A stretch of DNA of 64,000 nucleotides from Croceibacterium sp. TMG7-5b_MA50. GTDB taxonomy: Bacteria; Pseudomonadota; Alphaproteobacteria; Sphingomonadales; Sphingomonadaceae. Location: assembly GCF_039830145.1 (NCBI RefSeq), contig NZ_CP156082.1:2002001-2066000 (forward strand), given 5' to 3'. This document shows positions 24,001 through 28,017 of the stretch, in pieces (positions within the stretch are counted from its first letter, which is position 1; each line of letters opens with the position of its first letter). The notes beneath the pieces are model-generated. The model was given only the letters and a program-made list of their open reading frames with translations, searched no databases and was not told where the DNA came from. A program made the translations under genes and the position numbers.

Positions 24001-24075
24001 GCGGGCGTAGCTCAGGGGTAGAGCACAACCTTGCCAAGGTTGGGGTCGAGGGTTCGAATCCCTTCGCCCGCTCCA
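24001..24075 (+). tRNA. tRNA-Gly(GCC)
   Basis: Full cloverleaf: acceptor GCGGGCG (24001-24007) with CGCCCGC (24065-24071), D-arm GCTCAGGGGTAGAGC, anticodon loop TTGCCAA with GCC at 24033-24035, T-arm GGGTTCGAATCCC, discriminator T and an encoded CCA at 24073-24075. Confidence 0.98.
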
Positions 24076-24215: not shown

Positions 24216-24875
24216 ATGGCATTGCAGATGAGCACCGCGGGTGTCGCCCGCGCCTATGATCGCTGGGCCCCGGTCTACGACCTGGTGTTCGGCCCGGTCT
24301 TCCGCCGCGGCCGCTCCGCCGCGATCGTCGCCGCCGAACGGGTCGGCGGCCGGATCATCGAGGTGGGCGTCGGCACCGGCATCTCGCTGCCCCAATATTC
24401 GCGCGATGTCAGAATCACCGGCATCGACCTGTCGCCCGCCATGCTGGACAAGGCCCGCGCGCGTGTCCGCGAACAGGCGCTGGGTCAGGTGGAAGAGCTG
24501 GCGGTCGGCGATGCCGAGGCGCTGCACTACCAGGACAACAGCTTCGACGCGGTGGTGGCGCAATACGTGGTCACCGCCTGCCCTCACCCGGAACGGGCGC
24601 TGAGCGAGTTTGCCCGAATCTGCCGGCCCGGTGGCGAGATCATCATCACCACCCGCGTCGGCGCGGGACAGGGCCTGCGCGGCGCGATCGAGCGGACGTT
24701 GATGCCACTGACCAGCCGGCTGGGCTTCCGCACCGAATTCCCATGGAGCCGGTACGAGAACTGGGCCGCCACCCGCAGTGACGTGCGCTTGGCCGAGAAC
24801 CGCCCGCTGCCGCCGCTCGGCCACTTTTCGCTGGTCCGTTACCAGAAGCTCGGCCCGCAGGAGCAGACCCGATGA
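24216..24875 (+). CDS. SAM-dependent methyltransferase, PmtA-like phospholipid N-methyltransferase
   Basis: 219 residues from ATG 24216. Motif I EVGVGTGISLP (49-59), the acidic IDLSPAMLDKAR strand and the VVAQYVVTACPHPERAL region resemble PmtA of the Rhodobacter/sphingomonad type, which methylates phosphatidylethanolamine to the choline lipid. The start AYDRWAPVYDLVFGPVFRRGR is typical of that group. ATG 24177 would add 13 residues. Its stop overlaps the next gene by 4 bases (ATGA). Confidence 0.85.
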   Translation: MALQMSTAGVARAYDRWAPVYDLVFGPVFRRGRSAAIVAAERVGGRIIEVGVGTGISLPQYSRDVRITGIDLSPAMLDKARARVREQALGQVEELAVGDAEALHYQDNSFDAVVAQYVVTACPHPERALSEFARICRPGGEIIITTRVGAGQGLRGAIERTLMPLTSRLGFRTEFPWSRYENWAATRSDVRLAENRPLPPLGHFSLVRYQKLGPQEQTR

Positions 24876-25477
24876 CCGGTTTCCGCGCGCAACTCGCCGA
24901 ACAAAGGTGGGATGACCACCGGTTCTATCACCACAGCCTGGTGAACCAGAGCCTGCACTTCGTCAGCGCCTGCACCTTCATAACGGCCTATCTGATCCTG
25001 TGGGTGGACCCGGCGGTCGCCAGCCTGCTGGCCTGGGGCGTCGCCATGACCAGCCGACAGGCGGGGCATTTCTTCTTCGAACCCAAGGGCTACGACCACG
25101 TCAACGACGCGACGCACGACCACAAGGAAGAGATCAAGATCGGCTACAACCTCCAGCGCAAATGGGTGCTGATGAGCCTGTGGCTGGCTGTTCCGGTCGT
25201 CCTGCTGCTGCAGCCGACGCTGTGGGGTACGCTGCTGCCGCCAGATGGCGCGGAGGGGTATCTGCGCCATGTCGGCATCGGCTGGCTGATCCTGGGCGTG
25301 GGCGCGATCGCCTTCCGCTCCATCCACCTGTTCTTCATCCGCGACGTGGAAACTGGGCTGGTCTGGGCGACCAAGATCGTGACCGATCCGTTTAGCGATT
25401 TTCGCCTGTACAAGGGCGCGCCCCGCCGGTTGCTGCGGGGTGAGCGGATGGATTATCCGGACGGTTCACCGGCGTAG
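24872..25477 (+). CDS. Mpo1/DUF962-like His-rich membrane protein
   Basis: 201 residues, four probable membrane helices. An N-terminal FYHHSLVNQSLHF, then SRQAGHFFFEPKGYDH and NDATHDHKEEIKIG put six or more histidines near helix ends, in the order seen in Mpo1/DUF962 proteins, which are Fe-dependent dioxygenases acting on 2-hydroxy fatty acids in yeast. The match is from motif order, not proven. Coupled to the PmtA-like gene; its end overlaps the convergent aminotransferase by 12 bases. Confidence 0.6.
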   Translation: MTGFRAQLAEQRWDDHRFYHHSLVNQSLHFVSACTFITAYLILWVDPAVASLLAWGVAMTSRQAGHFFFEPKGYDHVNDATHDHKEEIKIGYNLQRKWVLMSLWLAVPVVLLLQPTLWGTLLPPDGAEGYLRHVGIGWLILGVGAIAFRSIHLFFIRDVETGLVWATKIVTDPFSDFRLYKGAPRRLLRGERMDYPDGSPA

Positions 25478-27118
25478 CAGGCGAGCCGCCGCGGCGCGCG
25501 CCAGGACGCCGCGGCGCAGCGCCTTGTCCGTCAGGCCGGCGGGGGTGTCCCACCAACCATCCGCCGCCATCGCCTGCGCTGCGGCAACGAAGCGGCGGAC
25601 GATCTCGGCAAACAGGGCATCGTCGATATCCAGGCTGAAGATCAGCCGGCCCGTGCCAACCCAGCTCAGCGCCAGCCCTTCGGCGCGGAGGTAGTATTGC
25701 AGCATCCAGTTATACGCCGCAGCCTGCGTGTAGAGCACGGTCCACACCGTCTGCAGATGGGCCACCTGCACCGGCACGCCGGCGGCGGCCAGCGCCTGAT
25801 TCATGGCGGCGGCACGCGCATCCCAGCGGGCGTCGAGGCCGTCATAGAGCGACCGGACCTCCGCCGTGTCCAGCCGCTGCAGGAAGGCGTTCATCGCGCC
25901 CATGACGTAGGGATGCGCGTTGAAGGTGCCCCGGGCGAAGCAGATGTCCAGCGGGCGATCATCGCGCCAGCGCCGCATCAGCGCCGCGCGGCCTGCCAAC
26001 ACGCCCACCGGCAACCCACCGCCCAGCGTCTTGCCATAGGTGACGAGGTCCGGTCGCACGCCGAAATACTCGGCCGCGCCGCCGGGCGCCAGGCGGAAAC
26101 CCAGGAACACCTCGTCGAAAATCAGCACGATGCCGTTCGCCCGGCACACCTCTGCCAACCGGTGGAGCCACTTGCGGTAGGCGGGAAGGTCCGTACCCGC
26201 GCGCCGGCCGCTGTCGACCAGCTGGTTGTCCGACGGGGCGGACCCGTTGGGGTGCAGCGCCTGCAGCGGGTTCACCAGCACGCAGGCAATATCTCGCCGC
26301 GTGGCGAGGACGTGCAAGGTCTTGTCGGACAGGTCGGCCAGCGTCAGCGTGCGGTCGGCCGCAACCGGATTGCCGATGCCCGGCTGCACATCGCCCCACC
26401 AGCCGTGATAGGCGCCGGCGAAGCGCACGATCCGCTGGCGGCCCGTATGGTATTGCGCCAGCCGCACGGCCTGCATCACCGCCTCCGTCCCGCTCATGTG
26501 GAACGACACCTCGTCCATGCCGGACAATGCCAGCAGGCGATCGACGTTGTCGGCCAGCAGCGGGTGATACGCGCCCAGTACCGGGCCAAGATCGGCGACC
26601 GCCGCCGCCCCTTCGGCAATGGTCTGCTTGTAGAGGTCGTAGCCGAACAGGTTCACGCCGTAGCTGCCCGTCAGGTCGATCAGCCGGTTCCCGTCGAGGT
26701 CGGTCACCCATGGCCCGTCGCTTGCCTGCAGGAACGCGCCGGTGCCCAGCACTTCGCGCACGCGCCGGGCAAAGGGGAACGGCACGCGGTAGCTGCCGGT
26801 GAATTGCAGGTCGGACAGGCCGGGCCTGACCTCCCGCGTCAACGCCAGCGTCTCCCTGTACCGTTCGGCGAACAGCACGCCCAGGCGGTCGAAGCCAGCC
26901 TGCCGACAGCGGGCGATATCGTCGGCCGCACCATCGGCGGCGAAGAAGCTGTCGGCCGGCTGGTCGAACGCGCCGACCTGCCCTGCCACCCGCTTCGCCA
27001 TGCGCACATGGCCGCCCAGCGATTTATGCTTGGCGCGCGACAGGGCAAGCCGGCGGCGCCCCTTGGTGAAGGCGAGCAAGGCGGTCGAGCCCAGAAGGGC
27101 GGCAAGGATCGGAGCCAT
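25466..27118 (-). CDS. Membrane-anchored class III (GSA-type) aminotransferase
   Basis: 550 residues from ATG 27118. The N-terminal hydrophobic helix (about 2-18) anchors it, then basic residues and a helical segment (to about 100), then a glutamate-1-semialdehyde-type aminotransferase: SGTEAVMQA (209-217), AYHGWWGDV, IFDEVFLGFRLAPGG with the PLP Asp335, and YGKTLGGGLP with the Schiff-base Lys363. The best-known relatives are HemL-like enzymes, but the anchor and the extra 100 residues are unlike HemL (about 430). It faces a phosphatidylserine decarboxylase homologue 32 bases away. The substrate is unknown. Confidence 0.88.
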   Translation of the reverse strand: MAPILAALLGSTALLAFTKGRRRLALSRAKHKSLGGHVRMAKRVAGQVGAFDQPADSFFAADGAADDIARCRQAGFDRLGVLFAERYRETLALTREVRPGLSDLQFTGSYRVPFPFARRVREVLGTGAFLQASDGPWVTDLDGNRLIDLTGSYGVNLFGYDLYKQTIAEGAAAVADLGPVLGAYHPLLADNVDRLLALSGMDEVSFHMSGTEAVMQAVRLAQYHTGRQRIVRFAGAYHGWWGDVQPGIGNPVAADRTLTLADLSDKTLHVLATRRDIACVLVNPLQALHPNGSAPSDNQLVDSGRRAGTDLPAYRKWLHRLAEVCRANGIVLIFDEVFLGFRLAPGGAAEYFGVRPDLVTYGKTLGGGLPVGVLAGRAALMRRWRDDRPLDICFARGTFNAHPYVMGAMNAFLQRLDTAEVRSLYDGLDARWDARAAAMNQALAAAGVPVQVAHLQTVWTVLYTQAAAYNWMLQYYLRAEGLALSWVGTGRLIFSLDIDDALFAEIVRRFVAAAQAMAADGWWDTPAGLTDKALRRGVLARAAAARLLRR

Positions 27119-27150
27119 GCCGGCTTTCACCGCAACGGAGTGACACCGGC

Positions 27151-28017
27151 GTGACAGCCCCTGCCAGCCTGATGCGCCTGCTGCTGCAGGAAGATCTGAA
27201 TTTCCTGCTGACCAACCGCCTGCCGCGCCGCTGGGCGACGCGGATCGTCGGGCGGATCGCCCGCAGCGAACATCCGCTGATCGCGCGCCCAGCGCTGGCG
27301 CTGTGGCGCTTCTTCGCCGGGGTCGACTTATCCGACGCAGCGGCCACGAGCTTCCGGTCCCTGGGCGAAGGCTTCACCCGCCCGCTCAGGGCCGGTGCGC
27401 GGCCCTTCCCCACCGATCCGGGCGTGATCGCCAGCCCGTGCGACGCGATCGTCGGCGCGCATGGCCGCGTAGCGGATGGCACCGCCTGGCAGGTGAAGGG
27501 CTACCCCTATCGCCTGAACGAACTGCTGCCCGACCCGGCGCTGGCGGCCCGCTATGCTGATGGCTGGTTCGTCACCCTGCGCCTGACCGCGGGCATGTAC
27601 CACCGCTTCCACGCGCCCACCGACCTGACGATGGAGGGGGTGACATATCAGTCCGGCGATTGCTGGAACGTCAATCCGATCGCGCTGAAACGGGTCGAGC
27701 GGCTGTTCTGCCGTAACGAGCGTGCGGTGATCGAGGCACGGCTGGCGGACGGCACGCCGCTGCTGCTCGTGCCCGTTGCCGCAATCTTGGTGGCGAGCAT
27801 CCGGCTGACCTTCCTCGACACCCCGGCCCTGCTGCGCGACGGAGGCGCCGGGCGGCGAGCTGTGAACGCAAAGCTGCCGGCGGGGGCGGAGATGGGCTGG
27901 TTCGAGCATGGCTCCACCATCCTGGTGTTCCTGCCCGCCAACGCCCCGCTGCTGCACGACCTGACGGAAGGCCAGCCGATCCGCGCGGGCATGCCCCTGG
28001 CGCGGATCGGCGGGTAA
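27151..28017 (+). CDS. Phosphatidylserine decarboxylase-like pyruvoyl enzyme
   Basis: 288 residues, GTG start (ATG 27172 is possible). It aligns with E. coli Psd along its length: SPCDAIVG with the charge-relay Asp98, GMYHRFHAPTD with His151 and His154, FCRNERAVIEARL, and FEHGSTILVF, where Ser255 of the GST motif should self-cleave to the pyruvoyl cofactor. The usual Leu before GST is His here. It should decarboxylate a serine-type phospholipid or a related compound. The neighbouring PmtA-like gene would act on the ethanolamine product. Confidence 0.85.
   Translation: MTAPASLMRLLLQEDLNFLLTNRLPRRWATRIVGRIARSEHPLIARPALALWRFFAGVDLSDAAATSFRSLGEGFTRPLRAGARPFPTDPGVIASPCDAIVGAHGRVADGTAWQVKGYPYRLNELLPDPALAARYADGWFVTLRLTAGMYHRFHAPTDLTMEGVTYQSGDCWNVNPIALKRVERLFCRNERAVIEARLADGTPLLLVPVAAILVASIRLTFLDTPALLRDGGAGRRAVNAKLPAGAEMGWFEHGSTILVFLPANAPLLHDLTEGQPIRAGMPLARIGG

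Follow-up and report, generated by a model that had tools for sequence, protein, structure and literature searches.

A conserved gene trio beside a PmtA-like methyltransferase in Croceibacterium: a probable membrane-lipid module

Four adjacent genes of Croceibacterium sp. TMG7-5b_MA50 look like lipid genes, and the question is whether they form a true unit and what such a unit would make. Coordinates below refer to the window, i.e., the whole stretch of 64,000 nucleotides that was analysed. The initial annotation of the locus, made from the sequence, considered the four genes as one set that makes or remodels an amino lipid, with a hint at the sphingolipids of sphingomonads. The features are as follows.

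24216..24875, + strand: PmtA-like SAM methyltransferase (Methyltransf_11), 219 aa; lineage-specific accessory gene
24872..25477, + strand: Mpo1-like His-rich membrane protein, 201 aa, weak match to PF06127; core gene
25466..27130, - strand: class III PLP aminotransferase (Aminotran_3) with a predicted membrane anchor, 554 aa, GTG start; core gene
27151..28017, + strand: PSD-like pyruvoyl decarboxylase (PF02666), 288 aa, GTG start, motif WFEHGST; core gene

The locus and its constant core

All four frames are open in the window. The stop codon of the methyltransferase gene is overlapped by the ATG of the Mpo1-like gene (ATGA); the aminotransferase gene is convergent with the latter, overlapping its end by 12 bases, and divergent from the PSD gene, their starts being separated by 20 bases. 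The GC content is 0.688 for the module and 0.688 for the window; composition is therefore uninformative on horizontal transfer. The count of promoters and terminators at the module was not above that in shuffled sequences. A defence role was rejected; PADLOC gave a single match, to mad2 (46.5 bits), and it covers the methyltransferase domain.

Co-occurrence was considered in 398 evenly drawn Pseudomonadota genomes. The Mpo1-like protein is present in 25 of them (about 6%), the PSD subclass in exactly the same genomes, and the aminotransferase also in 25, of which 24 are common to the carriers of the other two; the exceptions are one genome without an aminotransferase match (G355) and one with the aminotransferase only (G223). 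For the Mpo1-like protein and the aminotransferase the hypergeometric P is 3e-36, which is overstated because the genomes were treated as independent.

Linkage was counted at the best 80 of at least 552 confirmed places (from at least 593 listed), and this set therefore leans to close relatives. Among these best 80, the aminotransferase gene is convergent to the Mpo1-like gene in 69 of the 71 loci with enough sequence, the PSD gene then follows in 60 of the 60 longer loci, and the aminotransferase is absent nearby at two (L058 and L101). Four distant loci retain the adjacency in another gene order, with all genes on one strand. Relatives of the module span Alpha- and Betaproteobacteria and some gammas; Sphingomonas, Bradyrhizobium, Variovorax, Hydrogenophaga, Rubrivivax and others are among the matches listed. 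The four genes have correlated pairwise distances (Spearman 0.52-0.72, as high in none of 500 permutations), host kinship being included in this correlation.

The arrangement is not due to chance. Open frames, co-occurrence and adjacency agree with the initial annotation that the four genes are a true unit, and the expectation that they stay together in relatives was borne out. The claim of a four-gene set stands for the aminotransferase, PSD and Mpo1-like genes, which are the constant core, and fails for the methyltransferase: it immediately precedes the Mpo1-like gene in 63 loci of the best 80 of at least 552, and at the other 17 the core gene occurs without it. The methyltransferase is thus a lineage-specific add-on.

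The suggested link to lipids gains from the neighbours at other loci, some of which are lipid genes. LplT is found beside a glycosyltransferase at both loci tested (L071 and L177), above the cut-off in each; the ornithine-lipid synthase OlsF, also above its cut-off, lies near the module at L180; and GT4 glycosyltransferases neighbour the module at some loci. The glycosyltransferase was rejected as a core member because it is unspecific: 71 of the 99 family genomes have a close relative (E up to 1e-60), among them all 14 module carriers, and in the host genome the glycosyltransferase lies with an LpxH-like neighbour about 670 kb away. For the N-terminal half of the fused glycosyltransferase no Pfam match was found (L180, L181), and the best PDB match has an E of 0.29 (L180). 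A PHP domain, whose motifs are visible by eye in this half, was rejected.

The three core proteins

The PSD-like protein of the window matches PS_Dcarbxylase (PF02666) at 170.9 bits with a cut-off of 22, and TIGR00163 at 146.8 bits with a cut-off of 111.75. All 53 module PSDs keep D98, H151, H154 and S255, i.e., Asp90, His144, His147 and Ser254 of E. coli. The window protein is 25-35% identical to 28 other PSDs; these are the highest-scoring loci rather than a random draw (of the 30 available, L237 and L238 were left out as module members), 12 of them belong to one similar FGGST-type group, in which the alignment is not clean around GST and at the position of Asp98. HGST in place of LGST, to which attention had been drawn initially, is indeed present in the window protein, and the residue before GST (L252 in E. 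coli) is His in 51 module PSDs and Gln in two; taken alone, however, this change carries little weight. More telling are M149, N173 and A210, found in 53 of 53 module PSDs where the comparison set has D, S and G in 28 of 28 (E. coli D142, S166 and G202). Since residues constant in the comparison set are replaced, the module PSD is, judged by its sequence, a member of the PSD superfamily in a separate subclass and should not be filed as an ordinary PS decarboxylase.

PMC7952604 states for the E. coli enzyme that the contacts to the lipid phosphate come from Tyr137 and Ser166, that D142 is the backup of D90 in self-cleavage and that S166A alone causes little change; it also gives Arg at position 137 in 15% of PSDs. 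In view of the last two points, plain PS may still be a substrate of the module PSD. The proposed search for standard psd and pssA genes found a canonical psd-pssA pair elsewhere in the host genome, together with another E. coli-type Psd, which rules out the module PSD as the only psd of the genome.

The aminotransferase matches Aminotran_3 at 120.2 bits (cut-off 30.5) and stays below the cut-offs of the NCBIfam HemL-type models (188.2 vs 398 and 177.9 vs 527.3). In the profile ranking the AMT domain of mycosubtilin synthase reaches 219.5 bits and the best GSA aminomutase 157.2; in the fold ranking the same domain has a Z of 32.6, and the next different protein 29.8. HemL (glutamate-1-semialdehyde aminomutase) as the identity of the enzyme is ruled out by the cut-offs and by both ranks, and the closest solved relative, as far as profiles and a predicted model can tell, is the mycosubtilin AMT domain. 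The view that the enzyme is unlike HemL was thus correct, as was its length, given as 120 residues beyond HemL (554 aa against a 429-position model). No HemL above the cut-off was found in the host genome.

In a tree with 31 of the 53 module enzymes, the module aminotransferases group with PKS/NRPS-linked enzymes (support 93/80); the stem to the module clade measures 2.24 changes per site and the tree carries long-branch warnings, so the substrate may have changed. The module enzyme is a stand-alone protein rather than a PKS/NRPS domain; among the five PKS/NRPS-linked relatives, the one at L218 likewise stands alone. In the model of the window enzyme, residues 8-33 are predicted to form a helix, which would fit the membrane anchor proposed initially; the confidence over the first 20 residues is low to middling.

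The Mpo1-like protein of the window matches PF06127 with an E of 0.002 and 18.7 bits, below the cut-off of 24, and the copy at L184 reaches 23.3 bits against the same cut-off. With E up to 10 allowed, all 50 members considered have a match to PF06127 (best E 2e-05), and none of eight shuffled controls scanned, of ten made, has one. The PF06127 model has 95 positions, of which about 60 are matched by the window protein of about 200 aa. By eye, H20/H21, H29, H66 and E70 align with the motif of bacterial PF06127 members (H...H...GHxxxE); automatic profile comparison failed. An HMM from 11 such members (of 12 loci, L206 being left out) gave no separation of real from shuffled sequences, its best match being a shuffle, and hhalign gave a probability of 6.8. 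The structure model is mostly helical (pLDDT 90.1), and its fold has no match in PDB at E up to 0.001 and none among viral models. The Mpo1 assignment of this core protein is weak.

A possible pathway and its alternatives

We believe that the module probably serves a dedicated membrane-lipid pathway. That the core trio acts as a single pathway and adds an amine to a membrane lipid is a narrower claim, which we hold at slightly under an even chance; for it we infer a lipid amine as the product and one substrate shared by the enzymes. In its favour are the co-occurrence and adjacency of the genes, the nearness of the aminotransferase to an enzyme domain acting on an acyl chain, the residues kept and replaced in the PSD, the separate psd-pssA pair and Psd of the host genome, and the lipid genes at other loci. 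In the order of steps that we propose, the Mpo1-like protein would be an iron-type oxygenase that acts on a hydroxylated carbon beside a lipid carboxylate or carbonyl, the aminotransferase would aminate the carbonyl so formed, and the PSD-like enzyme would remove the adjacent carboxylate to give the amine. N-methylation of this amine by the PmtA-like enzyme would follow in many alphaproteobacteria, and a GT4 glycosyltransferase may decorate either the lipid or a precursor. The order of the steps and the oxygenase role are guesses, and this order is unlikely to be correct. The beta-keto substrate of the mycosubtilin domain would not match the alpha-carbon chemistry required before decarboxylation, which counts against the proposal, as do the weak Mpo1 assignment, the possible activity on plain PS, the inconstant glycosyltransferase and methyltransferase, and the exceptions to the unit.

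A more specific form of the proposal is clearly unlikely: the trio would convert the hydroxy- or keto-acid of an existing lipid in place, by oxidation, transamination and decarboxylation, to an ethanolamine-like or other aminolipid, which is then methylated in many alphaproteobacteria. A glycerate-type head group derived from phosphatidylglycerol is an example of such a substrate, and neither CDP-diacylglycerol nor serine would be needed. A sphingolipid-specific role looks unlikely. The hint at it loses weight through carriers such as Bradyrhizobium, Variovorax, Hydrogenophaga and Rubrivivax, which are not known to have sphingolipids.

The AMT domain of mycosubtilin synthase aminates an acyl chain, its substrate being a beta-keto acyl thioester. 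It is tempting to assign the same chemistry to the module, with a beta-amino or long-chain amino product and with the PSD separately giving that lipid a PE-type head group. Both rankings and the grouping in the tree point in this direction, while the long stem and the warnings on the tree allow for a changed substrate, and we consider this reading unlikely, if not strongly so. The direction could also be the reverse. Terminal amines are common substrates of class III enzymes, a class that includes ethanolamine-phosphate phospho-lyase; an aminotransferase of the omega-aminotransferase or phospho-lyase kind might strip the terminal amine from PE made locally by the PSD. The lipid aldehyde or phosphatidic acid so formed could be oxidised, glycosylated or re-acylated. 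The LplT genes beside the glycosyltransferase suit such a consumption of PE; the nearest relatives of the aminotransferase by profile, fold and tree are, however, of the AMT type, the PSD pocket is altered, and a methyltransferase with a possible use for the amine lies directly upstream in 63 of the best 80 of at least 552 loci. We regard it as unlikely.

Another alternative would be an ordinary operon for PE and PC supply, with a redundant PSD and a PmtA that yield methylated PE, in which the aminotransferase and the Mpo1-like protein are passengers. The PSD passes TIGR00163 and the methyltransferase resembles PmtA; moreover, PMC8590670 describes several Pmts in Bradyrhizobium diazoefficiens, three of which, PmtA, PmtX3 and PmtX4, methylate PE in E. 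coli. This reading is nevertheless very unlikely: the supposed passengers are as constant as the PSD, the methyltransferase is the member missing at 17 of the best 80 of at least 552 loci, and psd-pssA is already present in the genome.

Relation to known systems

No description of the module was found in the titles and abstract openings of the open literature searched, subscription journals being mostly outside this scope. In one annotated public record its members are named archaetidylserine decarboxylase, class III aminotransferase and hypothetical protein. About 6% of evenly drawn Pseudomonadota genomes (25 of 398) carry the trio, whose lipid-type enzymes nearly always occur together and have no assigned product; the module may lead to a membrane lipid, or a route to one, that current maps lack, and in that case the PSD subclass might need re-annotation. 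Conversion of a lipid in place, if true, would be a second way to zwitterionic lipids or aminolipids, hidden behind "archaetidylserine decarboxylase" and "hypothetical protein".

Among known systems, gpgSDF for glucosaminyl-PG (PMC12713373) is similar in that a GT4 enzyme adjoins membrane-lipid genes, but the module instead carries the aminotransferase, PSD and Mpo1-like genes. A gpgSDF-type system was rejected since the glycosyltransferases fall far below the cut-off of 480 for NF053787 (GpgS-type): 54.0 bits at L066, 76.2 for that of the host genome and 138.9 at L074, for which this model, GlcNAc-PG synthase, is the best NCBIfam match. The methyltransferase (82.4 bits with Methyltransf_11) has bacterial PmtA as its best NCBIfam match (NF045882), with 129.8 bits below a cut-off of 390, and is missing at 17 of the best 80 of at least 552 loci. 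The short name of this model ends in Leg, and it may cover one lineage only.

Yeast Mpo1 and PF06127 resemble the core protein by the weak match of all 50 members and by a histidine motif that can be aligned by eye, and differ in that the window copy is below the curated cut-off and about twice the length of the model. With the AMT domain of mycosubtilin synthase subunit A (6kfm, 6kfr, 6kfu) the aminotransferase shares the class III PLP fold, as its best profile and fold neighbour; that domain sits inside a PKS/NRPS, whereas the module enzyme stands alone with a predicted anchor, a longer N-terminal part and 26-28% identity. The E. coli-type Psd (7cnw, 6l06) has the same fold family, GST cleavage site and catalytic Asp, two His and Ser as the module PSD, which departs from it by D142 to M, S166 to N and G202 to A in every member and by L252 to H in nearly all.

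Conservation of the four genes as a unit

The four-gene set forms a unit. In the window, the module has four open genes and follows a tRNA gene:
24001-24075 (+), tRNA-Gly (gcc), about 140 bases before the module
24216-28017, the four-gene module

A PmtA-like methyltransferase gene and the gene of an Mpo1-like membrane protein are co-directional and coupled by an ATGA overlap. The gene of a class III aminotransferase (554 residues) is convergent with this pair and shares 12 bases with the end of the Mpo1-like gene; the gene of a phosphatidylserine decarboxylase (PSD) homologue is divergent from it across a gap of 20 bases. The methyltransferase fold, Aminotran_3 and PS_Dcarbxylase score above cut-off in Pfam/NCBIfam.

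The initial annotation named separation of these genes in relatives as grounds for its refutation; the genes were found to stay together. Among 99 same-family genomes (counting that of the window), a full-length aminotransferase is present in 14 at 61-100% identity; at the next match, identity drops to 34%. All four genes occur in the same layout in 13 of these 14 carriers; the remaining locus, L007, is broken off at a contig end. Among the same-family loci compared, the flanking pyruvate kinase is restricted to the window's genome and its congener.

A scan of named genomes with an alignment of Mpo1-like proteins gave at least 593 matched stretches, 552 of them confirmed among the matches listed. 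The best 80 of the 552 loci come from Sphingomonas, Novosphingobium, Erythrobacter and relatives, Bradyrhizobium, Variovorax, Hydrogenophaga, Rubrivivax and others. Within these 80, the convergent aminotransferase is found in 69 of 71 loci with at least 2 kb downstream (the exceptions being L058 and L101), the PSD in all 60 with at least 5 kb downstream, and the methyltransferase directly upstream of the Mpo1-like gene in 63; going by record titles, none of the 17 loci without it there is from a named alphaproteobacterium.

The best 80 loci are biased to close relatives; therefore, an even draw of 398 Pseudomonadota genomes was also searched (E up to 1e-80 for the aminotransferase and 1e-60 for the PSD subclass). 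The Mpo1-like protein is present in 25 genomes and the aminotransferase in 25, with 24 in common; the PSD subclass is found in the same 25 genomes as the Mpo1-like protein and in no others. The odd genomes are G355 (78% complete), which lacks the aminotransferase, and G223, which lacks both the Mpo1-like protein and a PSD of the module subclass. The hypergeometric P for co-occurrence of the Mpo1-like protein and the aminotransferase is 3e-36, which is too small because the genomes are not independent.

Two loci are recorded separately:
L213:9054-13146, four-gene module close to lptF and lptG on a 385-kb plasmid (NZ_CP155753.1) of Sphingomonas parapaucimobilis
L186:9274-9854 (-), Mpo1-like gene in two overlapping frames, possibly a frameshift or sequencing error

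The three core proteins

In a profile search of solved structures, the aminotransferase is closest to the amine-transfer domain (AMT) of mycosubtilin synthase (219.5 bits, against 157.2 for the best glutamate-1-semialdehyde aminomutase). Its AlphaFold2 model (pLDDT 87.2) also matches AMT best, with Z 32.6 over 421 residues and 29.8 for the next different protein. A tree was built of 31 module enzymes, five PKS/NRPS-linked ones (one stand-alone, four domains) and 16 further members of class III. All the module enzymes fall into a single group (100/100) with a long stem, and this group joins the PKS/NRPS-linked enzymes at support 93/80, in a tree with a long-branch warning from the tool and a midpoint root only. 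HemL was considered as an identity and rejected, its cut-offs not being reached. In the model, helix 8-33 followed by basic residues suggests a membrane anchor, which would place the enzyme, as we infer, on the cytoplasmic side.

All 53 module PSDs compared retain Asp98, His151, His154 and Ser255. At three positions that are Asp, Ser and Gly in 28 of 28 other PSDs, they have Met149, Asn173 and Ala210; the aligned E. coli residues are D142, S166 and G202. For the E. coli enzyme, PMC7952604 describes D142 as a back-up for D90 in self-cleavage, Ser166 and Tyr137 as contacting the lipid phosphate, and Leu252 as lining an acyl-chain surface; at the last position, 51 of 53 module PSDs have His instead. 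The same paper reports little change from S166A alone and Arg in place of Tyr137 in 15% of PSDs, so Arg144 of the module PSD is not distinctive. From these residues, we take the module PSD to be a probably active decarboxylase whose pocket has changed, which is no proof of a new substrate.

The window's Mpo1-like protein matches PF06127 at 18.7 bits, below the cut-off of 24. With an E limit of 10, all 50 members match (best E 2e-05); none of eight shuffled copies does. An HMM from 11 bacterial PF06127 members did not separate the protein from shuffled sequences, hhalign aligned the GHxxxE stretch only, and no solved fold matching its model was found. A distant kinship to PF06127 is plausible; membership of the family, and with it dioxygenase activity, is putative. 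One further copy was noted:
L184:9524-11629 (+), second Mpo1-like copy, of more distant kinship, immediately upstream of an acetylornithine transaminase (also class III)

Rearranged loci and lipid-gene neighbours

The gene order of the module varies, and its content is kept. In four distant genomes (L178-L181), one strand carries, in this order, the aminotransferase, a fused protein about 900 residues long, the PSD and the Mpo1-like protein, with no methyltransferase match. The C-terminal half of the fused protein is a GT4 glycosyltransferase. Its N-terminal half has no Pfam match in L180 and L181; by eye, it has PHP-like motifs (DLHCHD in several of the four, GSDDH in L180).

Lipid genes repeatedly adjoining the core trio are the main contextual clue to function. 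Within the best 80 of 552 loci, 9 of the 13 from betaproteobacteria have a GT4 gene as the immediate divergent neighbour of the Mpo1-like gene, and most of those from Bradyrhizobium have one upstream of the methyltransferase. An LplT gene scores above cut-off beside the glycosyltransferase in both loci tested (L071, L177). A close glycosyltransferase is common in the window's family even without the module. Directly 3' of the Mpo1-like gene in one of the one-strand loci is
L180:8101-9858 (+), OlsF ornithine-lipid synthase (816 bits, cut-off 620)

Some Sphingomonas loci have a gene pair for an LpxH-like phosphatase and a GT4 enzyme next to the module; in the window's genome, the pair lies about 670 kb away:
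L191:6657-8489, LpxH-like phosphatase and GT4 pair

Possible function and relation to known systems

The safest statement, which we consider probable, is that the module is a dedicated membrane-lipid pathway. Our best reading, put forward tentatively at somewhat under even chances, is that it yields an amine-bearing lipid, because it joins a PLP enzyme with amine-adding kin to a pyruvoyl decarboxylase needing an amino acid group, and many lineages add a candidate N-methyltransferase. We propose, with low confidence, that the steps run from oxygenation through transamination and decarboxylation to methylation.

Amination of an acyl chain by the aminotransferase, with its AMT-like fold, is an equally doubtful alternative, and deamination of PE by the module is slightly more so. 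The module might otherwise serve plain PE/PC supply. The initial annotation raised the matter of standard genes elsewhere in the genome, and a canonical psd (325.6 bits to NF003679, against a cut-off of 252) was indeed found adjoining pssA (TIGR00473, 102.4 bits, just under the cut-off of 107). A second Psd is of the E. coli type (TIGR00163, 244 bits); with the module PSD, the host genome therefore has three PSD homologues. Plain PE/PC supply appears to us the least probable of these alternatives. The second Psd of the host genome lies at
L190:7428-8318 (+), E. coli-type Psd (LGST) behind a gene whose product, read by eye, looks like a sugar-phosphate transferase

Going by titles and abstracts, we found no description of the module in the literature searched. 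As far as we have searched, the near-obligate combination of the trio and the PSD subclass are undescribed; the families of its enzymes are known.
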